Source: a virus. From it: 39,057 nt of DNA. Each line of letters begins with the position of its first letter. Position 1 is the first letter of the stretch. The DNA lies in IMG/VR virus record IMGVR_UViG_3300007735_000707, positions 1 to 39,057 of that record; one strand, written 5' to 3'. Shown in pieces: positions 478-39,057 of this stretch. The position numbers were made by a program, and so were the translations under genes. The notes under the pieces were generated by a model. The model saw nothing but the letters and a program-made list of their open reading frames with translations. It made no database searches and was not told where the DNA came from.

Positions 478-894
478 TTAGTACCAGCCCCTGTTATGGT
501 GCTTCCAAGCCTTGCAGGGTGTGCCGTAGCGGTGTTCAATGTAGCGATAGGCTCTGAGTATCTGGACTGCTGGGTCTTTACTCTTCTCGCCTAACATCTG
601 TGCTATTCCGTAGGCACTACTGCCCTGCTTGTTCTTGGCTAAGTGGTCGAACTTACTTTCCTTCATAAAGATTTTATAAATGCAGGCTCGCTCTGTTTTA
701 TCCCAACCCCATCCAACTTGGGCATAGCGCATAGCCATTATCTTGTTGGCTTTCTTCTGCTCCGTCGTTGCCTTGGTCTGAACTTTGGGTTTTTCTTTAG
801 GCACTATGTCAAGGTGCACACCCACGTTGTGGGTTGCTGGTGTGATAAGTGCCAAGACGATAAGAGTTGATAGAACTATGGCTCGTTTTCTCAT
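478..894 (-). CDS. Secreted lytic transglycosylase / lysozyme-like protein, 138 aa
   Basis: Probable peptidoglycan-cleaving enzyme. Residues 5-22 form a basic-hydrophobic signal peptide (RAIVLSTLIVLALITPA). The C-terminal domain (about 55-138) has the lysozyme-superfamily pattern: catalytic Glu79 in MKESKFD, then the SSAYGIAQML motif, then the closing RYGTPCKAW and NRGWY typical of actinobacterial SLT-type enzymes. Cys71 and Cys127 could form a disulfide outside the membrane. It lies far from the holin/endolysin cassette at 31.9-32.8 kb, in the leftward operon with WhiB, so it may act at a different time or place. Its start overlaps the WhiB stop by 4 nt. Confidence 0.85.
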   Translation of the reverse strand: MRKRAIVLSTLIVLALITPATHNVGVHLDIVPKEKPKVQTKATTEQKKANKIMAMRYAQVGWGWDKTERACIYKIFMKESKFDHLAKNKQGSSAYGIAQMLGEKSKDPAVQILRAYRYIEHRYGTPCKAWKHHNRGWY

Positions 895-1244
895 TTATCT
901 ATTCTAGCAATCTTTAACCTAACATTCCTTCTATGTCGTTGTTCTGCCTTAACTCTGACCGCTTTAGGGTTGTTAGTTGTCAGTAGATACCGCTCAACTG
1001 TGAGTAACCCGCCCCAGATAGTGCCGTGTCCGCCTGTGTATTCTAGGTTTTCACGTTCAAGTCCTTGCTCTAGGCATTGAACTCTGACTGGACAGATGTT
1101 GCATAACTCTATTGCCTGCACACTTCGTAAGACTTCCAACTGTTGCTCATCTGCCAGCCTTGGATTTTCATAGTGCCATAAGTCAGGGTCTGGGTGCTGA
1201 TTACATTTTCCTTGTGCGTGCCACGTTCGGTCAGGAAGTGTCAT
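891..1244 (-). CDS. WhiB-family transcriptional regulator, 117 aa
   Basis: WhiB-like proteins bind a 4Fe-4S cluster and the host primary sigma factor. All four cluster cysteines are present: Cys14, then Cys48-x2-Cys51-x5-Cys57 in LCNICPVRVQC. The G[VI]WGG turn follows (GTIWGG, about 74-79), then a basic C-terminus rich in Arg/Lys (VKAEQRHRRNVRLK) suited to DNA contact. The family is essentially restricted to Actinobacteria and their phages, which gives the best host clue in the window. It is expected to redirect host or phage transcription. TAATG coupling to the upstream gene. Confidence 0.93.
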   Translation of the reverse strand: MTLPDRTWHAQGKCNQHPDPDLWHYENPRLADEQQLEVLRSVQAIELCNICPVRVQCLEQGLERENLEYTGGHGTIWGGLLTVERYLLTTNNPKAVRVKAEQRHRRNVRLKIARIDK

Positions 1245-7254: not shown

Positions 7255-9039
7255 ATGGCATTATCAATGGAACAGGTAGCAGCGAGAGTCGTCTCTTTAC
7301 GCTACCGTAATAGTGAGCGCGATGCTCGCAACCTTGACGTCCTTGCTGTCCGTAAGGGTCAAATCTCACAGGTTTACCCTGACTTCTTTCCAGATGGCGT
7401 AGATGCCAACGTAGTTGCTAACTTCATTGATGTAGTCGCACGCGACTTGTCAGAGGTTATGGCTCCACTGCCAGCGGTAAACTGCTCAGCAGCAAACTCA
7501 GTTTCAGATAGAGCACGTACATTCGCTGACAAGCGTACTCGTATTGCCTCTAACTACTTCTCCCACTCTGACTTGTCAGTGCAGATGTACTCAGGTGCTG
7601 ACTGGTATATCACATATGGTTTCGTTCCGTTCATTATTGAATTGGACGAAGATGCAAAACTGCCACGTATCCGCATAGAAAACCCGATAGGTTCCTATCC
7701 AGAGTTTGACCGCTATGGACGTTGTGTGGCATTTGCTAAGAAATACCTGATGACATTGGGCGAACTCGTTACTCAGTTTCCAGAGTTTGAAAGGCAACTA
7801 CTTGGTCCTCAAGGATACAAGCAAGACCTTAATAACGAGGTTGAGTTAATTCGCTATTATGACAAAGACCAATCAATCATCTACTTACCAACAAAGCAAG
7901 ACTTAGTTCTTTCTAAGGTTAAGAATCCTCTAGGCAAAATGATGGTTGTTGTTGCACGTAAGCCTTCAGTTGATGGCGAACTACGTGGACAATTCGATGA
8001 TGTTCTAGGTATCCAGTTGCTACGCAACCGCTTTGCGTTGCTTGCAATGGAAGCAGCAGAAAAATCTGTTCAGGCACCTATCGTACTTCCTCAGGATGTA
8101 CAAGAGTTGCAACTTGGTGGAGACGCAGTTATCCGTACTGCTAACCCAGCAGGTGTGCGACGTGTCGAACTTACGCTTCCACAGGGTGCATTTACAGAGC
8201 AGACATTGCTTAACCAGGAACTTCGTGTTGGTACACGTTATCCTGAATCTCGTACAGGTAACATTGATGCTTCAATCGTCACTGGACAAGGCGTGCAAGC
8301 ACTTATGGGTGCATTCGATACCCAGGTCAAGTCAGCACAGGCAATCTTTGCTGCAGCACTACGCGACGTAATCAGCCTCTGCTTTGAAGTTGATGAAGTT
8401 ATTTACCCAGAAGAGAAAACAATTCGCGGAGTAGATTCAGGTTCTCCATATGAAATTTCATACAAGCCAACCAAAGACATCAAGAACGACTATTCTGCTG
8501 ATGTTCGCTACGGTATGCTTGCTGGTCTTAACCCAGCGCAAGGTCTTATCTTTATGCTTCAGGCACTTGGAGGAAAACTCATCAGCCGAGATATGGCTAT
8601 GAGAGAACTTCCATTTACTGTGAACGTAACTCAGGAACTTGAGAAGATTGAAATTGAAGATATGCGTGCCGCATTACTAGGTTCGCTAACTGCCTACACA
8701 CAAGCCATTCCACAAATGGCAACGCAAGGTCAAGATGCTTCAGAAGTAGTACGTAAGATTGCTGCGGTTATCAAGGCACGTCAAAAGGGTCAAGCACTAG
8801 AAGACGCAATTGAAGCCACATTCGCTCCGCAGCAGCAAGTTCCTCCTGCTGGGGCACCAGAAATGGTTGAGCAAACGTCCCCTGCTCCCGAAGGCGTTCC
8901 AGCAGGAGGCGCTATTGCTCCAGGTGGACCAGAGATTGCGCCACCAGAGCAAGCACCACCAGACATTATGAGCATTCTCTCTAGCCTTTCAGGCGGAGGC
9001 GAAGCAAACGCAAGCGTAAGAACCGTAGCACGTAGATAA
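7255..9039 (+). CDS. Portal protein (probable), 594 aa
   Basis: Twelve-fold portal at the packaging vertex, inferred from position after terL, size and features. The N-terminal region (VDANVVANFIDVVARDLSE, SGADWYITYGFVPFIIELDED, IENPIGSYPEFDRYGR) matches the style of podovirus-like portals with a membrane-distal wing and clip. Residues 530-590 form a Pro/Ala/Gly-rich disordered tail. Start ATG follows TTAGGACAATA. Identification rests on overall pattern and synteny rather than one diagnostic motif. Confidence 0.8.
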   Translation: MALSMEQVAARVVSLRYRNSERDARNLDVLAVRKGQISQVYPDFFPDGVDANVVANFIDVVARDLSEVMAPLPAVNCSAANSVSDRARTFADKRTRIASNYFSHSDLSVQMYSGADWYITYGFVPFIIELDEDAKLPRIRIENPIGSYPEFDRYGRCVAFAKKYLMTLGELVTQFPEFERQLLGPQGYKQDLNNEVELIRYYDKDQSIIYLPTKQDLVLSKVKNPLGKMMVVVARKPSVDGELRGQFDDVLGIQLLRNRFALLAMEAAEKSVQAPIVLPQDVQELQLGGDAVIRTANPAGVRRVELTLPQGAFTEQTLLNQELRVGTRYPESRTGNIDASIVTGQGVQALMGAFDTQVKSAQAIFAAALRDVISLCFEVDEVIYPEEKTIRGVDSGSPYEISYKPTKDIKNDYSADVRYGMLAGLNPAQGLIFMLQALGGKLISRDMAMRELPFTVNVTQELEKIEIEDMRAALLGSLTAYTQAIPQMATQGQDASEVVRKIAAVIKARQKGQALEDAIEATFAPQQQVPPAGAPEMVEQTSPAPEGVPAGGAIAPGGPEIAPPEQAPPDIMSILSSLSGGGEANASVRTVARR

Positions 9040-9054
9040 TTGAGGTAGGGGACA

Positions 9055-9591
9055 ATGACAACGATTATCGGTGTTGAATACGCAAATCGCTGTGTAATTC
9101 TTGGCGATTCTCGTATTGTTGGTGACTCAAAGATTTACTCTCACCCAGATATGGTCAAGGTTGTTACTAATGGTAACTATCTTGTAGGAGTTGCTGGAGA
9201 TGTTCGTGCATTACAGGTTGTGTTACACACTTGGAAGCCACCAGTCTTGCTAGCAAAAGATAAAAACAACATCTTTCAGTTTATGGTCAACAAAGTGGCA
9301 CCATCACTTAAGCAATTGCTTACAGACGCTGGTCTACTTGATGCTAAATCACCAGATAAAGACTTTGAGATTAACATAATTGTTGGACTCAATGGCAATC
9401 TGTTTGAAATTGACAGTGACTTTGCAGTATCTCGTAACTCAGAGGGGTATTACGCAATAGGAACTGGTGGAGATTACGCACTTGGTGCACTCTACGCAGG
9501 AGTTACTCCTGAACAAGCAGCAGAAGTTGCTGTAATTAATGACAGTAAGACCGCAGGACCTTTCACTACAGAGACACAGTACAAAAAATGA
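9055..9591 (+). CDS. Proteasome/HslV-like Ntn hydrolase, 178 aa
   Basis: Threonine protease of the proteasome beta/HslV fold. After Met removal the N-terminus is TTIIGVEYANRCVILGDSR: nucleophile Thr1, the Asp17 equivalent in GDSR, and the Lys33 equivalent in DMVKVV. Later family marks are GVAGD, AIGTGGDYALGAL, and the end pattern PEQAAEVAVINDSKTAGPF. The fold is nearly full length for HslV. It sits between portal and scaffold/capsid, where many phages keep a prohead maturation protease, so a capsid-processing role is the leading inference. No HslU-like ATPase is encoded. Start follows GTAGGGGACA. Next gene overlaps by 4 nt. Confidence 0.88.
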   Translation: MTTIIGVEYANRCVILGDSRIVGDSKIYSHPDMVKVVTNGNYLVGVAGDVRALQVVLHTWKPPVLLAKDKNNIFQFMVNKVAPSLKQLLTDAGLLDAKSPDKDFEINIIVGLNGNLFEIDSDFAVSRNSEGYYAIGTGGDYALGALYAGVTPEQAAEVAVINDSKTAGPFTTETQYKK

Positions 9592-9842
9592 GTGAAGAGT
9601 TCCGTGAAGCAGTAGAAGATGCTCTACGTTTGTTAGTAGATACAGACTCTAATGGCAAAGACTACATAGCCTCAGGATGGGTTCTTATATCTGAGTGGGC
9701 TGATTACAATGGTAACCGCTTTCTTCACACAGAAGTCAGCGAAGCAATGACTCCTTGGAACGCAGCAGGAATGATGCGACTTGCCGAAGAGTACAACAGT
9801 GAACTTGAAGATAATTTCTTAGAAGAAGAGGATGACGAATGA
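9588..9842 (+). CDS. Acidic hypothetical protein, 84 aa
   Basis: Starts MSEEFREAVEDALRLLVDT, with a core GWVLISEWADYNGNRFLHT and an acidic end LEDNFLEEEDDE. The core (W.L..E..D..G.R.L, then W.A.GM..LAEEY) resembles a widespread small actinophage protein of unknown role. ATGA overlaps at both ends couple it to the Ntn hydrolase and the next gene, so it could be a partner of either. Confidence 0.75.
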   Translation: MSEEFREAVEDALRLLVDTDSNGKDYIASGWVLISEWADYNGNRFLHTEVSEAMTPWNAAGMMRLAEEYNSELEDNFLEEEDDE

Positions 9843-10321
9843 CAACTGCACCAGAAAATCGTGGTGGCGCCAATGGCGGTCCTCAGTACAACCCAGCAAA
9901 CATCTCTGCTACAGGCGGAGCAGGTGGAACTGGTAAGCAAGCACCTAAGTACATTCCAGGTATGAAAAGTTTAGGCTCAACAGGAGTTGCAACTATGGCA
10001 CAACAGGGTGGCGCACCTATGGCTGGTAACCCAGTCCCTCCAGTAAAGACTCCAACAACTCCAATGGACTCAATGATGTCTGGTCTTGTACCACTTGATG
10101 CTGAGTCAATGGATGACCTACCTATCTCTGATGGTGTAGATATTGGTCGTGGTCGTGGTTCAGAGGCATTGCCAGCACGTTTAACATCTCCGATTAATCA
10201 AGATGAAAACGTAGCATTAATCAAACGTTACTTACCAGACCTAATGAATGCAACTCGTTTACAGGGTGCACCTGATTCATACAAGCAGTTTGTTAACTAC
10301 CTGAAAAACCAGATACTTTAA
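9839..10321 (+). CDS. Virion-region protein with disordered N-terminus, 160 aa
   Basis: Residues 1-80 are Gly/Ala/Pro/Gln-rich and probably disordered (NRGGANGGPQYNPANISATG). The C-terminal third is folded and helical (NVALIKRYLPDLMNATRLQG, SYKQFVNYLKNQIL). Located in the packaging/head block with 4-nt and 1-nt overlaps to neighbours. Likely a virion or assembly protein (inference from context); no family recognised. Confidence 0.75.
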   Translation: MTTAPENRGGANGGPQYNPANISATGGAGGTGKQAPKYIPGMKSLGSTGVATMAQQGGAPMAGNPVPPVKTPTTPMDSMMSGLVPLDAESMDDLPISDGVDIGRGRGSEALPARLTSPINQDENVALIKRYLPDLMNATRLQGAPDSYKQFVNYLKNQIL

Positions 10322-10524
10322 TGAGATGGGTAGAGAATAACTTCTTTGACCACCTAGATAAGTTTGCTAACTCTCTAGGTTATGAAAATTATGAAATAGC
10401 AATTCCTTTGGCAATGGTTCCTTGGGAGTCTCCAGAAGATAGAGATATTTTTATTTTAACTATCACTGGCAATGAAGTACAAGGTGGCAGTCCTGATACA
10501 TTTAAAGCAGGGGAGGTTAAGTAG
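10321..10524 (+). CDS. Small hypothetical protein, 67 aa
   Basis: Starts MRWVENNFFDHLDKFANSLG and continues ENYEIAIPLAMVPW; acidic and aromatic. TAATG overlap with the upstream gene. Its 3' end carries GGGGAGG, the ribosome site for the giant protein that follows. Function unknown. Confidence 0.7.
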   Translation: MRWVENNFFDHLDKFANSLGYENYEIAIPLAMVPWESPEDRDIFILTITGNEVQGGSPDTFKAGEVK

Positions 10525-13500
10525 TGAGTTCATTCTGGGATAGTTTTGTTCAAAATGTTTTAGGTATGAACCGCAAAGACCAAAAGAGACTTGTTGAAGG
10601 TGTAAGCACTCAACTTTCTGGTGCTAAAAAGGCTGTAACAGGTTTGCCTGGATTTGTTTTAGGTCAAACTGTCGTAAAACCAATTTCACAAAATTTACAA
10701 TCTGCAGCACTTAAGGCTGGATATACGCCTGAAGAGGCTGCCGCTGTAGGATTAGCAATTGAAAAAACCAAGGTTGGCGAATACACTTCAAAAGAATCTA
10801 AAAGGTTTATTGAAGGCAGTCTCCAGACAATAGACCCAGTTCTTATTGCTGCAGAGAAAGCAGAAAAATACGTTTTCTCTCCAATTGCTCGTACGATTTC
10901 TACTGCAAATTTATTGTCAGACCCTACAAGTGCGCTTTATAATAGCGATAAGTACGGTAAGGGTTTTCAATTTTCAGATGTTATTGATGCTTATAACCGA
11001 AGCGAAAAAGTTTCTCTTGGTGTATCAATGCTCAAAAGTGGTCTCAATCCACTAGGCTCCTTTGAAAGCCTCGTCTTAAAAAATGGAGGCATTGATGTTA
11101 ATGATGTTGACCTATGGAACGATGAAGACATCAAGAAGAATTTTGAAGAAAATACTCTTGGTCGTTGGATTACTGGAACAAACGATTTCTTAATTAAGAA
11201 TATTGCTATCAATGTTGTCGGTTCAGGTGGCGCTGCAGCAATACGAGCAGGAGCACTCAAGGCTGGTCTTAATACACGCTTTCGAGTTGGTGATGTAAAT
11301 GCAATGCCAGAGGCTGAAAATTTAATTAATCAGCATATTGCATTCCGCAAGTCTGGTGGAACAGAGGGCAACTTAACGGTCTTTGGACAAGACGTTGAAG
11401 ACCTTGCTACCTCAGAAAACATTATTGATATTAAAAGAATTATTAGCAAGCACAGCAATAATCCTCGTCTTCCAGGTCTACTTAGAGATACAAAAGACCC
11501 AGAGTTTGTACGCGATTTAATTTTGGCTGACAAAGCATATGCTCCAGCAGTTGAACGACTTGCTGCTGCAGGTATGCGTGATGACCTGTGGGTACTAGGC
11601 GATGGCAACCTTGTTATTCAGGGCAATTATGCAGCAACTGGTCGCATTCCGTCAATGACTCCTGAGCAGTCTACTCGTGTTCTTGGTGCATTTGACGATG
11701 CTATTAGAAAGAATCCTAAGCATCAAGAAATTTATGATGCGTTTTTAAAGGACATCGAGGACCCACTTACTGGTGGTATGACAATTGAACCAACATTTTT
11801 TGGTAAAAACTATAAGCCAGTTGAGCCAGTTATTGGCGGACCTACGGTTGCTGCTGCTCGTTCTCGTCTTGGAAAGATTAAGACTTCTGTAATTGAGCGC
11901 GACTTCTCTAAAGTTGGCGGATACACACAGACAGTTCTTGGTAGCAAACTACTTAACGGACCATCTACTGTATTAATTAGAACCTTTGGAACAATGATGC
12001 CTAAGGGTTTTATTACTAACTCAGGTGTGCGTCCACTAAATGGCATTGATGAATTAATTGCTACATTTGATGATGTTCCTTTGTTCCGTCGTGGAGACCG
12101 AGTGATTGAAAACCACGAAGGTCGTATGATGACAGTATCTCAGTACCGTACTGAAACAATTGATAGGCTTGTTTCAGCAAAGACTGATGGTGAACGTGCA
12201 GCAATGATTAAGAATTTGAACACTGAAATTATTCGCACAATTTCTTTTACTCGCGGCGAGCGCGATACAAATCTTATTGATACATTTGTAGATAACTTAA
12301 TGCAAGATGTCTATACAGTTCACGGTAACTTAGCCGCTAGAGGAACAGCACTAGACCCAACTGGTGTCAGAATTGTTGTATCTCCTAAGACTCAGGCTCA
12401 ACTTGCAAACTCTATGCCGACTCTTCCATTTGGTGAGTTTGATAGAATGCTTGCACGAGCAATGGCTGGTAAAGGAAATGTTTTAGTCAGTGGCACTCGC
12501 AAAGTTGCAGGTGGAACTCGCGCTGGCGCGAAGGCAATCTTTGAGGCTGGTAACAAAGCATTCTCAATTTCTGCTTTGTATCGTTTCAGTTATATTCCAA
12601 AGAACTCAGTTTTTGAACCACTACTTAGTGGCGTTATGGCTGAAGGAACTGATTTTGCAGGTGCAATGCTTAGGTCATCAAAACAGATTATTAAAAACAA
12701 CGCTAATGTTATAATGCGTAATATTGATAAGTCTAAGACTCTTTTGCCCAGCGCTAAAAAAGAAATTCAACGCGAAGTTGATGCTTTGTCACAACAGTAT
12801 AACGAGGCAGTTAACATACGAGATATTGTTTATGCAAAGTATGAGCAACTATTTGCAGATGTTCCTGGTGTATCTCCAGCGACTAAGCGTGAATGGGCTG
12901 ACAGTGTACGCGACGACCTGCGTGCTGCAGAGAAGATGGTTGATTTTGTTGAAGTAAAACTCAATAAGTACACTGTTGAATACGGCAAGAGTATTGATGT
13001 GCCATCTTTGTACAACTTGCGTCGTAGACTTCAAACACTCAAAGACTTACCAGCAGCAGAACGCGCTAGTGAGCGCTATGCTTCTGAGATTCGTAACGCA
13101 GAATTGCTAATTGCTAAAGCATCTCAGACCATTAATACAATGGCTCCAGAGGTTAATGTACTAGATGCTCAGATTGCGTCTGCATACAAGAGAATTAATG
13201 ATTCATTAAAGGAACTTGGACCAGCAATTAAGAAGCGTGGAGAAATTTTCTCTGTAGCAGATGGTCGATATATCAAGAAGCCTGTATTGCCAGAGTGGGA
13301 AAAGATTGTTACCTCTAATGGTCAGGTAATTGAAATGCCATCTATGAGAAATAAAGATTATCTTGGCGATGGATACTTTAGTGAAATTGCTAACAATAAT
13401 ACAAGAACAATTGAAGTCCTTGGTAACAAAGCAACTGTAGCAAAGTTTAATACAATTTTTAAAAATGGACCACAGAGCATTACCAATGTTGCTGACCCAT

Positions 13501-15719
13501 TATATTTTGATGAGTTGGCTTATGTAGTCAATACATTTATGCGTGGGGATATGCTAGTCGACCAGATTCTTGCTGGTAAGTCAAGAGCACTTATTCTTGA
13601 TTGGGCTTCTACTAATCGGGGAGCATCTTATGCTCGTTCTATGGGTCGCCCAATTGACCAGTTAACGGATATGGTTGATGAGGCATTCTCATATGTTAAT
13701 CGTTATCTGCCGAGTGCTGAGGCAAAGGCATTAGCATCTGCTGGTCCTGTAAAAAAGACAGACTTAGAGCAAATCTTGGCTGACAAGTTAGACCAAATGG
13801 TTGGTATTCAGCCACTTGACGTACCTTATGGTAGACCAACCAACTTAGTTAAAGGCATAAATGAAGCAGTTGACTCTGCAATGGCTAAAGCCTGGAGAGC
13901 AATGGTATTTCCAGAAAACGCTATTCGTGAAGTATGGGGAACTGTTGATTTTAATAAGCGTATGACTGAAAAAGTAAATATGCTTATTGCTCAAGGACAG
14001 CAACCAACCCTTTCAACCGTACTGGCAATGCGACAATCAGTTGCTGCTGAAATGGTTGAGAATGTTAGCAAGGTTTTTTATACAATCCCACGCCAACAAC
14101 GAGGATTATACCTTGCAAGAGTGCTAACCACGTTCCCTAATGCTGCTGCCTCTGGTATCTATCGCTATGGTGGGTTTGCTGTTAAGCAACCTGGACGTAT
14201 TGGTGGATTCCTTAACAGTTACTATGGTCTTTACAATTCATTTGGTGTAGATAAGTATGGCAATCCAGTTGAAAATCCAATGGATGCTGAGTATCTTCTT
14301 ATTCCTGGTACAAAAGAAATGGGATTAAATGATGGTAAGGGTGTAATCATTAGTGCTCGCGCTACTAATTACATTGCTAATCTACCTGGACCTTCATATT
14401 TAGTTCCTTTGGGTCTTGGTCGCGTCTTATCTTGGAAGGTAAGCACAGAAGATGAGATTAAAAAGACTGTTGATAAAACAGTTGGAAAAATTCCTGGATA
14501 CTCATACGATGAATTGTTCCCATACGGAATTGAAACAGATTTAAAGACTCAATTAGGTCGTACATTTACACCTGCTTGGGCACGTAATCTATCTACTGCT
14601 TTGAACAAGAGTACAACAGATGAGATGTGGGTTCAGTCTTTACTATCTGAGGCAAACCGTCAGCAAATTCTTTATGAGATGAAAATAGGACCTAAGCCCA
14701 CAGAAGAAAGTATCCGTAAGGGCACAGAGAGCATCTATCTACGTAAGTTCCGTACACAAATGTTCTCTTTCCTTGGTACGCCTCAATATGTTGAGTCTCG
14801 TCCCGACGCATTATTCTCTGACTATTACTATATGTTATACGAGAAGTATAAGACTAAGACAGACCCTAAGACTGGCAAGCCACTTACTGAAATGCAGGCA
14901 TCTTCTCTTGCAGAGGATGAGTTTCAGAAGCAAATGCGTCTTGCAGGTGGTGCAGACTTCCCAATGGACCGCATCTTTACTGGCGGTGCACGCGATAAGA
15001 TTGCATATTTCCCAGCAAGTCAGAAGGCTTACAGCCGAATTTATGAAGATTTCTCTGGACTTGCTAAAAAACTAGAGCGTCTTGACCCATCACTTGTTGG
15101 GTTGATGACTGCTGACTTGCCAAAAGATTATAGTGTTCAAATTAGCAAGTTCCTTAATGACCCTAATGCAACTCTTCCTGGTGGAACTGTTCTTAACTCA
15201 CAACTTAAGACACCACAAATGGTTGAGGATGAACTTACTAAGTCACGTCTTTGGAAGTCCTATACAGAGTTTAAAGACTCACTAAACAAGGCAGCAAAAG
15301 AACAGTTAAAGGTAGCAAGTTACCTTAGCGTTCCAGAGTTTAAGGACCAACTCAGAGCATATGCTGAGACTCTTGGTGCTACAAGCCCTGAATGGTTTAT
15401 TGAGTATGCAGGTGGCGGAGCCGCTAAGGATAGCGCATACCTACAATCTGTTGGTCTTAAGACACTTGTAAATGATGACAAGTTTATGAAGAAGTTTGGC
15501 AACACACAGTTCTGGACTCACGCTAAAGCATTCATCGAATACAGAGATTCATTTGGCAAGGCTCGACTTTCTGCCCCATCAGGATACAAGGGTCAAATTG
15601 AAGAGCAATGGCAACTATATCTTGAGGAAAGTCTTCCTCTATGGGACCCAACTCTACAAAGAATCATTACACGCTATTACAGCAATGATAGTTTAAATAT
15701 AAAGGAGCCTAAGAAGTGA
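10524..15719 (+). CDS. Giant internal virion protein (probable), 1731 aa
   Basis: The largest gene, about 13% of the genome. No catalytic motif was found by reading. The sequence is helical and mixed-charge with Ala-rich amphipathic stretches, a probable coiled coil around 735-870 (SKTLLPSAKKEIQREVDALS onward), and hydrophobic patches such as NIAINVVGSGGAAAIRAGAL. In podovirus-like genomes such very long proteins next to head genes are usually ejection proteins that build a channel across the cell envelope (T7 gp16-like role, by analogy). GTG start after AGGGGAGG. Followed by two more large proteins of similar style (15716, 16810), suggesting a three-part internal core. Confidence 0.65.
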   Translation: MSSFWDSFVQNVLGMNRKDQKRLVEGVSTQLSGAKKAVTGLPGFVLGQTVVKPISQNLQSAALKAGYTPEEAAAVGLAIEKTKVGEYTSKESKRFIEGSLQTIDPVLIAAEKAEKYVFSPIARTISTANLLSDPTSALYNSDKYGKGFQFSDVIDAYNRSEKVSLGVSMLKSGLNPLGSFESLVLKNGGIDVNDVDLWNDEDIKKNFEENTLGRWITGTNDFLIKNIAINVVGSGGAAAIRAGALKAGLNTRFRVGDVNAMPEAENLINQHIAFRKSGGTEGNLTVFGQDVEDLATSENIIDIKRIISKHSNNPRLPGLLRDTKDPEFVRDLILADKAYAPAVERLAAAGMRDDLWVLGDGNLVIQGNYAATGRIPSMTPEQSTRVLGAFDDAIRKNPKHQEIYDAFLKDIEDPLTGGMTIEPTFFGKNYKPVEPVIGGPTVAAARSRLGKIKTSVIERDFSKVGGYTQTVLGSKLLNGPSTVLIRTFGTMMPKGFITNSGVRPLNGIDELIATFDDVPLFRRGDRVIENHEGRMMTVSQYRTETIDRLVSAKTDGERAAMIKNLNTEIIRTISFTRGERDTNLIDTFVDNLMQDVYTVHGNLAARGTALDPTGVRIVVSPKTQAQLANSMPTLPFGEFDRMLARAMAGKGNVLVSGTRKVAGGTRAGAKAIFEAGNKAFSISALYRFSYIPKNSVFEPLLSGVMAEGTDFAGAMLRSSKQIIKNNANVIMRNIDKSKTLLPSAKKEIQREVDALSQQYNEAVNIRDIVYAKYEQLFADVPGVSPATKREWADSVRDDLRAAEKMVDFVEVKLNKYTVEYGKSIDVPSLYNLRRRLQTLKDLPAAERASERYASEIRNAELLIAKASQTINTMAPEVNVLDAQIASAYKRINDSLKELGPAIKKRGEIFSVADGRYIKKPVLPEWEKIVTSNGQVIEMPSMRNKDYLGDGYFSEIANNNTRTIEVLGNKATVAKFNTIFKNGPQSITNVADPLYFDELAYVVNTFMRGDMLVDQILAGKSRALILDWASTNRGASYARSMGRPIDQLTDMVDEAFSYVNRYLPSAEAKALASAGPVKKTDLEQILADKLDQMVGIQPLDVPYGRPTNLVKGINEAVDSAMAKAWRAMVFPENAIREVWGTVDFNKRMTEKVNMLIAQGQQPTLSTVLAMRQSVAAEMVENVSKVFYTIPRQQRGLYLARVLTTFPNAAASGIYRYGGFAVKQPGRIGGFLNSYYGLYNSFGVDKYGNPVENPMDAEYLLIPGTKEMGLNDGKGVIISARATNYIANLPGPSYLVPLGLGRVLSWKVSTEDEIKKTVDKTVGKIPGYSYDELFPYGIETDLKTQLGRTFTPAWARNLSTALNKSTTDEMWVQSLLSEANRQQILYEMKIGPKPTEESIRKGTESIYLRKFRTQMFSFLGTPQYVESRPDALFSDYYYMLYEKYKTKTDPKTGKPLTEMQASSLAEDEFQKQMRLAGGADFPMDRIFTGGARDKIAYFPASQKAYSRIYEDFSGLAKKLERLDPSLVGLMTADLPKDYSVQISKFLNDPNATLPGGTVLNSQLKTPQMVEDELTKSRLWKSYTEFKDSLNKAAKEQLKVASYLSVPEFKDQLRAYAETLGATSPEWFIEYAGGGAAKDSAYLQSVGLKTLVNDDKFMKKFGNTQFWTHAKAFIEYRDSFGKARLSAPSGYKGQIEEQWQLYLEESLPLWDPTLQRIITRYYSNDSLNIKEPKK

Positions 15720-16810
15720 CACCACTACCACCACCTCCGACGATTGTCATTCCTAAAAAGGAGGAAAAGGGTCCTAAGATTACTTACATCTGGATGCCAG
15801 ATGCAAAGGGTAACTTAGTCAAGGCTGACGCTTCTGTAATCAAGAAGTCATTTGCTAAACTCCCATCTAGTTCACAGGTTGCTTTAACACAATATTTGCT
15901 TACTGTTGCTAACAAGCAACCAACAGATACTGCTCGTCAAGCCCTATGGAATGACATCGTAGATGGTGCTATTGCTGCCTTTAAAGAAGGCAAGAAGCAA
16001 AGTCCTTGGGACGTCTTAGATGTTTTAACCAAGAACTCTCCTGCTGTTAATGGCGAAAGCGTAACCTACACAGAGTACGACCCAATTACTGCCCAGGCGC
16101 TGCTTGGTAAAATTGCAGAAACAATTGGCTTTGATATTAATCAACTTAGTGATGCTGATAAAGCAGAGTTCTTTAATAAGTTAAACACTGAGGCTAAGGC
16201 TTCTGGCAAGACAACTACTCGTAAGGCTGCCACTGGTGGTACAGAGACTGTTGTTACTCCATCACTGTTTAATGCTAAGGACTTTACAGAGTCTTTCTTG
16301 TGGGCAAAGGTCAACTTTGCGGACACAACTAAGTTACCATCTAGCGCAATCACACAGATTTCTTCTCTCAAAAGCATACTTAAGGCTAATGGAATATCTG
16401 ATTTAAGTCAGAAAGAAATCAACGCCCTTGGTGTTGCACTTGCTTCAGGCAAGCAAACTATTGATGCTCTTAAGAAAGACCTAGGAGCCAAGGCTGCACT
16501 ACGTTACCCACTGTTTGCAAAGAGACTACAAGACACTCCTGGCTTAACTGTTATGGATGTTGTCGAGCCATACATTACACAGATGGCTAAGTACTGGGAA
16601 ATTGACCCTAACACTGTTGACCTAGATAATCCAGACCTGGACAAGTTTATCCGTCCAGATGGAACAGCAGGAAATGTACCAATGGGTTCAATCTCTGACT
16701 GGGTTACATATTTAAAGAATCACCCTAACTCAGAAAAAGCAAGTTGGGCAAAAGAAGGTGCACGCGACTCCGCAGTAGGCGTTGCTAGAGCGATGGGATT
16801 CGGAGTATAA
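15716..16810 (+). CDS. Virion/internal protein (probable), 364 aa
   Basis: GTG start overlapping the giant gene's stop. The N-terminus is a Pro-rich linker (MTPLPPPPTIVIPKKEEKG), then helical domains (AKLPSSSQVALTQYLLTVAN). The C-terminus is MGSISDWVTYLKNHP and ends ARAMGFGV. No enzymatic motif seen. Position between two large virion-type genes suggests it is an internal or ejection protein. TAATG coupling to the next gene. Confidence 0.65.
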   Translation: MTPLPPPPTIVIPKKEEKGPKITYIWMPDAKGNLVKADASVIKKSFAKLPSSSQVALTQYLLTVANKQPTDTARQALWNDIVDGAIAAFKEGKKQSPWDVLDVLTKNSPAVNGESVTYTEYDPITAQALLGKIAETIGFDINQLSDADKAEFFNKLNTEAKASGKTTTRKAATGGTETVVTPSLFNAKDFTESFLWAKVNFADTTKLPSSAITQISSLKSILKANGISDLSQKEINALGVALASGKQTIDALKKDLGAKAALRYPLFAKRLQDTPGLTVMDVVEPYITQMAKYWEIDPNTVDLDNPDLDKFIRPDGTAGNVPMGSISDWVTYLKNHPNSEKASWAKEGARDSAVGVARAMGFGV

Positions 16811-18786
16811 TGGCAGACACAACAACCGCATTACGCAAGTTACAGTCTGGTCAAACTTTAACAGATGAAGAAAAAAAATTACTTGGGATGACTGTAACTC
16901 CTACCAAGGCATCAGCATTAACTCAGGCAGAAATCGATGCTAAGACAGCAGAACAAGTTGCTGCTGGTATTAAGAGTACTTCTAAAGAAGCAAGACTAGA
17001 AGGCGAAACATATGCTCAAGCAAATGCTCGTTTAACTCAGGGCTACAAAGACCAACCTAAGCCAGAGTTAACACAAGAGGGTGTTACTGGTGGTGCAACT
17101 CTTGAGTATGTTCGTACTGGTTCAGGCGGTGTTGGTGAGTACAAGGAAGTATATCCAATTGGTACGCCAATTCCAGATACACGTACTACAGTAAGTGGCA
17201 ATGTTTATGATGCCCAGGGAAACCTTATTGCTGGCTCAGGCTTAAAGCCTGGACAAGTTGGAGCAGGCGATAACACTGTTCGATATGGAACATCTGAAGC
17301 AGATAGGTCACCAATTGCAACTATCCGTGAAGGCGGTTCTTCTGCTGGCAAGGATGCAACTGGTAAAGACGTTTACTACAAAATAGAGGGCGATACAGTT
17401 GGCTTCTACTATGCTGACGGTTCAAAAGTACCAACAGATAATCTTATTGGAGTTAAGCAAGCAGTTGATTTTGCTAATGCTGGGAGAAGTGTTCAGGGTC
17501 TCGAAAAAGGAAAGACTCCAGCAGAGATTAAGTATGCAGATTTAATTAAAGCAGAAATGGATAAGGGAGCACAACCTGGCGGTAACGCTTATGTCCGTGG
17601 TGATGTTGTTGTTGTCAACGATTCTAATGGCGTTAGTCTTTATGACCTAAATGGAAACCTTCTTTCTGGTAAAGGTTCTACTAACCAAATCGGCATTGGA
17701 AGTACTGATGGAAGAAAAATTAATATTGCCTCTGTAGGAATATTTGGTTCACCAGAATATAATTTAAATAAAGCATTTAATGTCACAAATGCTGCTACTG
17801 GAATAGGAACAGGAACTGGCGCAGGAACTGGTCTTGGCACTGGTGGTGGGACTATTGTAGATACTGGTGGAAGCACTGGCGGTACAGCATTTGACATCTT
17901 TAAAAATACTTTATCATTATTCTTTGGTCCAGCAGAAATGACCAAGCCTTGGGTTAGCCAACTATATAAAACTGTATCTGGTTTTACTAAGAGTGGCTCT
18001 ACTCCAGAAGAAGCATTTAATATGGCTGTTCTTGAGTCAGAGAAGAACCCAGCAATGGCTGACTTTGCAAAGCGATTTAAAGGAATTTATTCACTTCAGA
18101 AAATGAAGCAAGAGGGTAAGGCAGTTACTGTGCCTACTGTTGCTGAATACTTTGCAACTGAATCAAAGATGGGCGACATTCTTAAGGCGTCTAACTTGGG
18201 TGACTTGGCTAATGAAGAGTTCCTGGGAGATGTTCTTAGTAAAGGTGTATCTGCTACAGAGTTTGGTAACAGAATCACAGCAATCTTTGACCGTATCGAT
18301 ACAGCACCAGATGTTGTTAAGAAGACAGTAGGAAGATATTTTCCAACTCTTGACCGTACTCAACTTGCTAAGGCTTTGGCTTTGGGTGATAAAGGTGCTA
18401 AGCAACTTGAACAAGAACTTGCTGGTTATGAAGTGCTTGCAGGTGCAGGTGCACAAGGACTTGAAGCAAGCACAGCACTTCCTGGTGGAATTACTCTTGA
18501 GCAAGCACAACAGATTGCTAAGGGTGGTGGCACATACGCCAGCACACTAGGACAATTCGGACAGATTGCTGGAGCACGAGAGACAGAGCAGAAACTTGCT
18601 GAGATTTCTGGAGTGAAATCAATAGGAGTTACTGGCTTGACAAGTGCTGTTATTAATAAGTCTGCTACAGAACTTAAGAAACTAGAAGATTTAACTAAGC
18701 AAGAAGAAGCACGTTTTGCTGCTAAGGCTGGAACTATTGGTTCTAAGAGCCTAGCATCACAATCAAGAGCAAACCGCGTAATCTAA
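16810..18786 (+). CDS. Virion/internal protein with Gly-rich hinge, 658 aa
   Basis: Helical N-terminal third, a beta-rich middle with many Gly/Asp turns, a flexible Gly/Thr hinge at about 325-360 (GIGTGTGAGTGLGTGGG), then a helical C-terminal half (AFDIFKNTLSLFFGPAEMTK onward). It ends with a basic Ser/Ala tail SKSLASQSRANRVI. Third of the three large proteins before the scaffold. A role in the internal core or genome ejection is likely by position; no family recognised. Confidence 0.65.
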   Translation: MADTTTALRKLQSGQTLTDEEKKLLGMTVTPTKASALTQAEIDAKTAEQVAAGIKSTSKEARLEGETYAQANARLTQGYKDQPKPELTQEGVTGGATLEYVRTGSGGVGEYKEVYPIGTPIPDTRTTVSGNVYDAQGNLIAGSGLKPGQVGAGDNTVRYGTSEADRSPIATIREGGSSAGKDATGKDVYYKIEGDTVGFYYADGSKVPTDNLIGVKQAVDFANAGRSVQGLEKGKTPAEIKYADLIKAEMDKGAQPGGNAYVRGDVVVVNDSNGVSLYDLNGNLLSGKGSTNQIGIGSTDGRKINIASVGIFGSPEYNLNKAFNVTNAATGIGTGTGAGTGLGTGGGTIVDTGGSTGGTAFDIFKNTLSLFFGPAEMTKPWVSQLYKTVSGFTKSGSTPEEAFNMAVLESEKNPAMADFAKRFKGIYSLQKMKQEGKAVTVPTVAEYFATESKMGDILKASNLGDLANEEFLGDVLSKGVSATEFGNRITAIFDRIDTAPDVVKKTVGRYFPTLDRTQLAKALALGDKGAKQLEQELAGYEVLAGAGAQGLEASTALPGGITLEQAQQIAKGGGTYASTLGQFGQIAGARETEQKLAEISGVKSIGVTGLTSAVINKSATELKKLEDLTKQEEARFAAKAGTIGSKSLASQSRANRVI

Positions 18787-18910: not shown

Positions 18911-19387
18911 ATGAGCAACAACTACTGGGACGACGAAGACGATGACCTAGACACAATCGATGAAGCACCTATGGATGGAAGCGACTTACTTAAAAAGTTG
19001 CGAAAAGCCAAGCGTGCTGACGAGAAGCGTATTAAGGAACTCACTGAGCAACTTGAGGGATTTTCCAAGTCGCAGCGTGAGGCAACTGTCAAGTCAGTAC
19101 TAGAAAAGAAGGGCGTCAATCTTAAAGCAGCCCGTTTAGTAATGAAGGACTTGGATGACATTAACGAAGAATCAGTTTCTAACTGGCTCGATGATAATGC
19201 AGACTTGTTCGGACTAACGGTTAACGAAGATAGTTCTGCTGTAAGTCAAGAAGACCGTGCTGCATTACGCAACCAGGACTTGGTTACACAGAACGCAATG
19301 ACCCCTGACCGAGCAAACGATATTGAATACAGAATGCAACAGGCAACGTCTGAAGAAGACATTCTGGCAATTCTACGCTCACAATAA
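18911..19387 (+). CDS. Scaffolding protein (probable), 158 aa
   Basis: Sits directly before the capsid gene. It is small, acidic at the start (YWDDEDDDLDTIDEAPMDG), then has a charged coiled coil (LLKKLRKAKRADEKRIKEL to about 60) and a helical C-terminus. This composition is typical of capsid scaffolds that template the procapsid and are lost at maturation. It may be a substrate of the HslV-like protease (inference). AAGGGTGG precedes the ATG. Confidence 0.75.
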   Translation: MSNNYWDDEDDDLDTIDEAPMDGSDLLKKLRKAKRADEKRIKELTEQLEGFSKSQREATVKSVLEKKGVNLKAARLVMKDLDDINEESVSNWLDDNADLFGLTVNEDSSAVSQEDRAALRNQDLVTQNAMTPDRANDIEYRMQQATSEEDILAILRSQ

Positions 19388-19423: not shown

Positions 19424-20623
19424 ATGCCTAACGCATATACATCCACAGGCTCTACCACTCTTGGTGGTACAGTCGGCGGTGCAGGTCTTGTACAGAAGGC
19501 GTATGACCGTCTTCTTGAGTTCGCTCTCCGCGCCGAACCACTAATTCGTTCAGTCGCAGACAAGACACCAGCACAGCAATCAATTCCAGGCTCAACTGTA
19601 GTTCTACAGAAGTACGTTGACCTAACAGCAGCAACAAGCACATTGACAGAGACAGTTGACCCAGATTCAGTTGCTCTATCAACACCTAACACAGTTACAA
19701 TTACTCTTAACGAGTACGGTAACTCTGTATTGGTAACACGTGCTTTGGAACTCTTCTCTCTAGCAGACGTAGACCCAGCAGTTGCTAACATCATCGCATT
19801 CAACCTTGCAGATTCAATCGACCAGGTTGCAATGACAACACTTAACGGCGGAAGCAACGTAATCTACGGTGGCTCAACTGCTACATCAACAGCAACTATC
19901 ACTGCTGCTGCAACACTAGACTCAGCAGACATCCGTAAGGCTGTTGCTAAGATGCGCTCAAACAAGGCTGCATACCGCAAGGGTTCACTATACTGGACAG
20001 GTATTCACCCAGAAGTTTCACACGACCTTCGTGCAGAGACAGGCGCAGCAGGATGGCGCGACCCACACAATTACTCATCACCAGATAACATCTGGGCTGG
20101 AGAAATTGGACAGTACGAAGGCGCATTCTTCGTAGAGTCACCACGTTTGTACTCTGCTAAGACAGGTGCAGACCAGTCAACACTAGCAACAACAGCAGTA
20201 ACATCAGCAGGAGTTTCAGCCGCATTCACATTCGGCGTTGCTTCATCTTCTGTTATCGCTACACGCGCTGAAGTTGGCGACAAGATTTCAGGTACAGGCG
20301 TCGGTTCAGGCGCAAAGATTACTGCAATTGCAACATCAGGTTCAACAACAACATTTACTGTTGACGTTGCTAACTCTGCTGCAGTTACAGTATCTACAGT
20401 TCTAACTGTTACACCTGTAACTCGCGTTTACTCAACAATCGTTGCTGGAAAGCAAGCAATGGCTCAGGCTGTTGCTGAAGAACCACACGTTGTTATCGGA
20501 CCAGTCGTTGACAAGTTGATGCGTTTCCGCCCAATGGGTTGGTACGGCGTACTCGGCTTTGCACGCTACCGTGAAGAAGCACTGTATCGCATTGAAACAG
20601 GCTCATCAATCGCTGCTCTCTAG
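19424..20623 (+). CDS. Major capsid protein, N4-gp56-like, 399 aa
   Basis: HK97-fold shell protein. The segment NEYGNSVLVTRALELFSLAD (96-115) followed by PAVANIIAFNLADSIDQVAM is the N4 gp56-family signature, and the end VVDKLMRFRPMGWYGVLGFA fits its C-terminal part. Residues about 244-335 are a Ser/Thr/Ala/Val-rich beta insertion (TTAVTSAGVSAAFTFGVASS onward), probably a surface domain on the capsid. The ribosome site GGAGGTGA, an almost perfect anti-16S match six bases before ATG, fits very high expression. Confidence 0.9.
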   Translation: MPNAYTSTGSTTLGGTVGGAGLVQKAYDRLLEFALRAEPLIRSVADKTPAQQSIPGSTVVLQKYVDLTAATSTLTETVDPDSVALSTPNTVTITLNEYGNSVLVTRALELFSLADVDPAVANIIAFNLADSIDQVAMTTLNGGSNVIYGGSTATSTATITAAATLDSADIRKAVAKMRSNKAAYRKGSLYWTGIHPEVSHDLRAETGAAGWRDPHNYSSPDNIWAGEIGQYEGAFFVESPRLYSAKTGADQSTLATTAVTSAGVSAAFTFGVASSSVIATRAEVGDKISGTGVGSGAKITAIATSGSTTTFTVDVANSAAVTVSTVLTVTPVTRVYSTIVAGKQAMAQAVAEEPHVVIGPVVDKLMRFRPMGWYGVLGFARYREEALYRIETGSSIAAL

Positions 20624-38911: not shown

Positions 38912-39057
38912 TTATCCTCCTGTTGAATAGAATCCAGTTCCCTTGAACTGAACCGCTGGTGTGTTGTAAATTCTACTAGATACCTGCCCACAAACGCAAG
39001 TAACTTCATCATCTCGCTCTTCGATTTTGCGATTTATAATTGTTAGTGAATGACACT
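38912..39057 (-). CDS. FmdB-like zinc-ribbon protein, 3' part (duplicate end copy)
   Basis: Second representation of the gene at 1-155, lacking its first nine codons because the contig ends. The last codons FYSTGG and the stop at 38912-38914 are found only here. Differs from the left copy by Leu39 to Ile and one silent change. Confidence 0.85.
   Translation of the reverse strand, partial: CHSLTIINRKIEERDDEVTCVCGQVSSRIYNTPAVQFKGTGFYSTGG
38916..38924 (-). promoter_or_regulatory. Start-associated sequence variant AACAGGAGG
   Basis: Codes for the Thr-Gly-Gly end of the FmdB-like protein and precedes the ATG at 38910. Confidence 0.65.
38931..39057. repeat. Right copy of terminal direct repeat (circular overlap)
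   Basis: Matches 1-127 with two differences (38971 and 39044). Confidence 0.95.

Follow-up and report, generated by a model that had tools for sequence, protein, structure and literature searches.

Among the proteasome homologues of solved structure, BPH (5ovs, 5ovt and 5ovu; PMC5777263) possesses an elongated pore loop, whereas the linker found in HslV is short, and BPH itself displayed no activity on model substrates (PMC5777263). The family was enlarged by Fuchs et al. 2021 with the AAH, CPH and PPH proteasome homologues, which include phage members and have no known function or partner; within that survey no actinobacteria-specific phage was found to carry AAH (PMC8665760). PHROG has a family of such phage proteins (phrog_1040), and single proteins have been annotated as HslV in pSal-SNUABM-04 (PMC7823757) and as ‘BPH’ in RXM (g89; PMC8953757), while for the phages of Planktophila the main text of Kavagutti et al. 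2023 merely mentions genes for host-protein degradation (PMC10202952). Phage proteasome homologues are already known, and the gene considered here is also present in two published genomes (LanE43AprE7 and LanE43AprF5); what we add is its fixed portal-adjacent place, the proteasome-less background of the hosts, the existence of peptidase-less sister lineages, and evidence against a role in the capsid.

We analyzed the IMG/VR virus record IMGVR_UViG_3300007735_000707 over its positions 1 to 39,057 (the whole 39,057-nucleotide stretch, hereafter the window). Its ends (1-127 and 38931-39057) form a direct repeat with 125 of 127 bases identical, which suggests that the genome is complete (through a terminal repeat or overlapping circular ends). 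The features used throughout the text are the following:

891..1244, minus strand: WhiB-like regulator, a marker of actinobacterial hosts (profile match; PMC10202952)
5112..6977, plus strand: terminase large subunit (profile match)
7255..9039, plus strand: portal protein (phrog_104), encoded immediately 5' of the peptidase in every portal locus that has the latter
9042..9051, plus strand: purine-rich ribosome-binding site GAGGTAGGGG, just 5' of the peptidase ATG (read from the sequence)
9055..9591, plus strand: proteasome-like N-terminal threonine peptidase of 178 aa with an ATG start, Met1 presumably being removed to expose Thr1
9588..9842, plus strand: 84-aa protein whose start overlaps the stop codon of the peptidase gene (coupled through ATGA)
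9839..10321, plus strand: 160-aa head-operon protein g160 (phrog_8200), with homologues in peptidase-less relatives
18911..19387, plus strand: scaffold-like protein (weak DUF4355 match), sharing 27-31% identity with its positional counterpart from Streptomyces phage
19424..20623, plus strand: major capsid protein (phrog_1357), whose alignment with the capsid protein of a peptidase-less Streptomyces phage is colinear from the first residue

Further genes recognised in the window encode a sigma factor, pieces of a primase and a DnaB-like helicase. An SNase-family (staphylococcal nuclease) nuclease with an apparently hydrophobic N-terminus is encoded on the minus strand (2000-2437). The region 10524-18786, located between the small head genes and the scaffold, is a variable module of 1731-, 364- and 658-aa proteins whose identity among relatives varies widely, and it probably corresponds to the 8-kb genomic island reported for LanE43AprE7 and LanE43AprF5 (PMC10202952).

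Over 22-31 kb the window is about 91-93% identical in nucleotide sequence to OX376640 (LanE43AprE7) and OX376641 (LanE43AprF5), which are cultured Planktophila phages (PMC10202952), and the peptidase gene recurs in them with 90% and 93% identity, respectively. Because the window so closely resembles cultured Planktophila phages, the assignment of the host class rests on isolates and not on WhiB alone, and the phage represented by the window would be expected to infect a Planktophila-type actinobacterium. Both database entries carry the name ‘Caudovirales sp. ct2KA10’ and list neither a host nor any annotation, so that the known host is hidden.

The peptidase ORF begins with MTTIIGVEYANRCVILGDSR, starts 15 bases after the end of the portal gene, and shares an ATGA (at 9588) between its stop and the next start. 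Comparison with PHROG assigned it to phrog_1040 (‘peptidase HslV family’, E 1e-27), whereas the Pfam Proteasome family (PF00227) was matched by a narrow margin and over the N-terminal 54 residues only (23.7 bits, curated cut-off 22.4). A phmmer search with the peptidase matched chains of both HslV and BPH, and a profile built from 27 relatives returned BPH (5ovu) as its top PDB match, over the whole length including the pore loop (E 4e-7, 32.8 bits). The ORF is real, its similarities lie far above chance, and the protein is a member of the proteasome/HslV/BPH superfamily (Ntn hydrolases). The motifs from which a preliminary description of this DNA had proposed a threonine protease of the proteasome/HslV family were all found in the ORF (9055-9591), and both the family assignment and the full catalytic set were borne out by PHROG, Pfam, the BPH profile match, the full-length fold and the invariant residues.

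An AlphaFold model built from a divergent alignment reached a pLDDT of 89.5 and a pTM of 0.87 (against a pLDDT of 76 with a less divergent alignment). In VIA-align comparisons the model superimposed best on BPH (Z 18.7, rmsd 2.8, 165 residues), followed by HslV (Z 18.4) and the 20S beta subunit (Z about 18), with residues 2-178 covered and with a range over the proteasome-fold structures of Z 17-18.7 and 156-167 aligned residues. Foldseek likewise placed BPH first (E 1.5e-10, TM 0.77), a ranking that holds among the families listed. The model thus predicts the proteasome alpha-beta-beta-alpha fold across the whole chain, and structure prediction against HslV and proteasome beta, which the preliminary description had proposed as a check, gave a full-length match with Z about 18. 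The nearest solved relative is BPH, for which no unfoldase is known.

Both helix pairs are predicted in the peptidase (the helix at residues 67-91 with high confidence), and H2 is joined to the following strand by a long loop, which BPH also has, where HslV has a short linker. One further feature lies here:

9334..9363, plus strand: long loop that follows H2 and is mostly acidic, corresponding in position to the BPH pore loop (from alignments; HslV is gapped here)

Around this loop the alignment of the peptidase with HslV opens gaps of 4 and 7 residues. The segment carries a mean net charge of -1.7 in the family; compared with its relatives, the window protein has a less acidic one. The likeness to BPH extends to the Thr1/Asp17/Lys/Gly set, the elongated loop after H2, the missing propeptide and the missing cognate AAA+ protein, and to the best profile match in the PDB over the full length; the differences are the low identity (about 20%), the location of the phage gene behind the portal, and the less acidic pore loop of the window protein. 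With HslV (ClpQ) the peptidase shares the fold (Z about 18), the Thr1 register, Asp17, Lys33 and the GS/TGG motif, but its pore loop is longer and HslU was found neither in the phage nor in the host. The HslV equivalog models were matched far below their cut-offs (23.1 against 137, and 21.6 against 157.75), and an HslV orthologue was rejected on the equivalog scores, the pore loop and the missing HslU. The phage HslV of pSal-SNUABM-04 also comes without HslU (PMC7823757).

Like the AAH, CPH and PPH proteins, the peptidase is a compact group-I proteasome homologue found in phages. PPH has about 140 aa and lacks H2 (PMC8665760), whereas the phage peptidase has 178 aa and a long H2, and the presence of both helix pairs sets it apart from PPH. 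The superfamily also includes the protein ligase connectase (PMC8665760), and many proteasome homologues have no known substrate, so the protein might be imagined as a highly specific processing enzyme or a transpeptidase of the connectase kind and not a degradative one. We consider this improbable, since the alignment contains no connectase-type insertion between S3 and S4, and since connectase lacks the first helix pair (PMC8665760) while the peptidase is predicted to have both.

The active site was read from the residue register given by the structural alignment of the predicted model, which places residue 2 of the ORF (a threonine) on Thr1; residues are numbered for the mature protein, with the initiator Met removed:

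9058..9060, plus strand: Thr1, catalytic nucleophile, invariant in 72/72 distinct proteins and in the divergent set
9106..9108, plus strand: Asp17, invariant in 72/72 distinct proteins and in the divergent set
9157..9159, plus strand: Lys34 (equivalent to proteasome Lys33), invariant in 72/72 distinct proteins and in the divergent set
9196..9198, plus strand: Gly47, oxyanion hole, invariant in 72/72 distinct proteins and in the divergent set
9460..9471, plus strand: G-S/T-G-G motif (GTGG in the window) with the auxiliary Ser/Thr of the active site, kept in the family (from the alignment)

Not one of the 72 distinct proteins from the 133 loci of close relatives departs from T1, D17, K or G47, and the gene has a median dN/dS of 0.155. 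The same four residues are present in 32 of 32 divergent portal-adjacent representatives, whose identity goes down to 26%, and the invariant positions of these divergent relatives are essentially the catalytic set together with GxG and a small number of structural positions. Relatives from unrelated phages retain T1, D17 and K in all five cases tested and G47 in four of the five. Several very divergent proteasome-like proteins, all of them with T1, D17, K and G47, occupy the portal-adjacent slots of L222, L230, L235 and L238. Judged by this conservation the peptidase looks enzymatically active, and a proteolytic activity would be expected of it.

The nucleophile would lie directly behind the initiator Met. 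An upstream in-frame start is impossible in 123 of the 133 loci, so that the peptidase has no propeptide; the other 10 loci share one GTG, situated at most 3 codons upstream. An overlooked propeptide was ruled out on these counts (123/133 loci without any possible upstream start, at most 3 extra codons in the rest).

The placement of the peptidase within the head operon, already proposed in the preliminary description, is confirmed by the flanking portal, scaffold-like and capsid genes. Of the portal loci, 155 carry the peptidase, and in every one of them it lies directly 3' of the portal gene, between the portal and capsid genes; 133 of them comprise the window, its cultured kin and loci to which the peptidase itself had led, and among the loci of the freshwater clade selected by portal alone, 17 of 17 carry it. 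Mapped on the portal tree, the distribution of the peptidase is explained by two changes, where shuffled data require 21 on average: the whole freshwater clade has the gene, as does a single neighbouring lineage, and the rest of the tree lacks it. In the sister lineages the small head-operon genes follow directly after the portal, without a peptidase: the product of the gene directly behind the portal in L242 is weakly homologous to the 84-aa protein, and homologues of the 160-aa protein are present in L260 and L241 (the 84-aa protein gave no alignment with L260). Such an arrangement is most simply read as the late addition of a single gene, which entered on one or two branches.

A position between portal and capsid genes, held directly after the portal in each of the 155 carrying loci, together with the fact that none of the scanned window ORFs could be recognised as a prohead protease of the serine type, is what a threonine-type prohead protease might show, i.e. 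one recruited to the procapsid in order to trim or degrade scaffold, capsid or internal proteins. This role had been suggested in the preliminary description, and it is not upheld by the comparison with structural relatives that lack the gene. Streptomyces podoviruses (Manuelvirus and kin; L132, L133) are relatives of the Planktophila phages in the structural module and have the same gene order. Their portal and capsid proteins are 44% and 58% identical to those of the Planktophila phages, yet they are without the peptidase, as are the sister lineages with homologous portals and the same gene order; the gene is therefore not retained wherever this capsid system is used. The major capsid and scaffold-like proteins are colinear from residue 1, their first residues coinciding whether the phage has the peptidase or not, and because these starts match those of the peptidase-less Streptomyces podoviruses, the peptidase does not accompany any extra, cleavable N-terminal pro-region. 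Kin of the peptidase in other phages sit among non-head genes, and one of the carriers, DSL-LC01, has separate genes annotated as capsid maturation proteases. Taken together, the colinear capsid and scaffold starts, the peptidase-less relatives and the non-head context of kin elsewhere make a dedicated capsid role unlikely, and a prohead protease is a reading to which we give little weight. Its more particular form, a self-compartmentalised threonine prohead protease incorporated into the procapsid and newly acquired in this lineage, seems to us slightly less probable still; to our knowledge no virus has been described as maturing its capsid or disposing of its scaffold in this way. The major capsid protein has, at about residues 253-329, an insertion of some 80 residues that is missing from the Streptomyces-phage capsid and is possibly a surface domain.

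The located homologues from cultured phages of other hosts lie outside the head operon, in contrast to the fixed post-portal position described here. The homologue of Pumpernickel adjoins thymidylate synthase and MazG, that of Vibrio phage 166E36-1 stands beside PhoH and near ribonucleotide reductase, and that of DSL-LC01 adjoins WhiB, while those of Psychrobacter phage D'Alembert and Arthrobacter phage Hum25 are found beside small genes; in Vibrio phage VpV262 the homologue (ORF47) closes a forward-strand block, with the terminase in the block of opposite strand. A scan of genome contigs with two peptide patterns only recovered no close cellular relatives, and the phage profile matched in 4 of 396 actinobacterial genomes, where the L264 match resembles HslV and that of L266 resembles 20S beta.

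Peptidase and portal do not share one history throughout the group. Pairs of phages with portals 80-88% identical can have peptidases of only 26-42% identity, and pairs with portals 68-71% identical can have peptidases as close as 86-88%, while a portal-like grouping of the peptidases was rejected marginally in a tree test (p-AU 0.047). The catalytic residues were retained through every exchange of the peptidase that we saw. As the 160-aa protein g160 is decoupled from the portal to a similar degree, general gene exchange in the phage group explains the decoupling, and swapping as a peculiarity of the peptidase gene was rejected. The pattern agrees with the high rate of gene flux that earlier work reported in Planktophila phages (PMC10202952). 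Such partial coupling to portal identity might suit a host-facing factor, and the fixed place of the gene between the portal and the large 1731-, 364- and 658-aa proteins (possible internal or ejection proteins) would allow for a peptidase carried in the virion, either close to the portal or inside the internal core, that enters the cell by injection and acts early on a host or anti-phage protein. We regard this as quite unlikely, given that a folded ring would be hard to inject and that g160 shares the decoupling.

Concerning a partner ATPase, no HslU/ClpX-type protein was found among the window ORFs scanned, in which the only ATPases found are the terminase and the DnaB-like helicase, and there is no AAA_2 match in LanE43AprE7 or in four other phages that carry homologues. 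The statement of the preliminary description that the phage encodes no such partner holds for these ORFs and for the AAA_2 search. It had also offered recruitment of the host proteasome ATPase as a possibility, and this fails in the host genomes. LanE-43 and four related genomes contain no PF00227 protein; profile searches of the same five genomes gave no HslU above the cut-off (the weak match being ClpX) and no Mpa/ARC above the cut-off (the weak pup_AAA match being a 689-aa protein of FtsH size). In the order-wide survey 196 of 201 genomes lack any PF00227 member, and the remaining five have two adjacent matches that resemble 20S alpha and beta; since such pairs were detected, the search is able to see actinobacterial proteasomes. 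With neither a proteasome nor HslU or Mpa/ARC by the profiles used, recruitment of a host proteasome ATPase is untenable in LanE-43, and we reject it for LanE-43 and its kin.

Given that HslV and the 20S proteasome are normally ATPase-dependent, the peptidase might still serve as a phage-supplied proteolytic chamber for another host AAA+ unfoldase, namely ClpX or FtsH and not HslU or Mpa. LanE-43 encodes a full ClpX (656 bits), besides the 689-aa pup_AAA match of the size expected for FtsH. ClpX, however, docks on ClpP, a protein whose fold is unrelated to that of HslV. The pore loop and the best profile match are BPH-like, and no co-occurring AAA+ partner was found by Fuchs et al. 2021 for the new proteasome homologues (PMC8665760). 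In our estimation such a chamber is a doubtful proposition.

The reading that we favour over the others, at what we judge to be about an even chance, is that the peptidase may act as an ATP-independent, self-compartmentalising threonine peptidase, gained as an added gene and used in the infected cell, not in capsid maturation. It would probably be made with the late genes, given its arrival as a lone gene 3' of the portal. The host methionine aminopeptidase would remove Met1 and expose Thr1, which would be activated by the Lys33-equivalent and Asp17, while Gly47 and the GS/TG motif would stabilise the intermediate. By analogy to BPH, its subunits would probably form a single or double homo-oligomeric ring, in which the pore loops, and not an AAA+ partner, would select the substrates, so that unfolded proteins, small proteins or peptides could be cleaved without ATP. 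Within the infected cell it would most likely degrade or recycle host or misfolded phage protein, or remove a specific host factor. Several points count against this ATP-independent role in the cell: the fixed post-portal site (155/155) could reflect a head-linked role, BPH itself cleaved none of the model substrates (PMC5777263), the pore loop of the window protein is the less acidic one among its relatives' loops, and the host ClpX could be a partner.

The catalogue of 2021 listed phage proteasome homologues without function, context or partner; here, one of them is placed at a fixed locus in a large family of freshwater actinophages, whose hosts are the commonest freshwater bacteria and mostly lack any proteasome. 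Should the peptidase family turn out to be AAH, the gap left by the actinobacteria-specific phages in the distribution of that group would be closed. Since cultured phages (LanE43AprE7 and LanE43AprF5), a cultured host and natural peptidase-less relatives all exist, the function of a viral proteasome homologue becomes directly testable.
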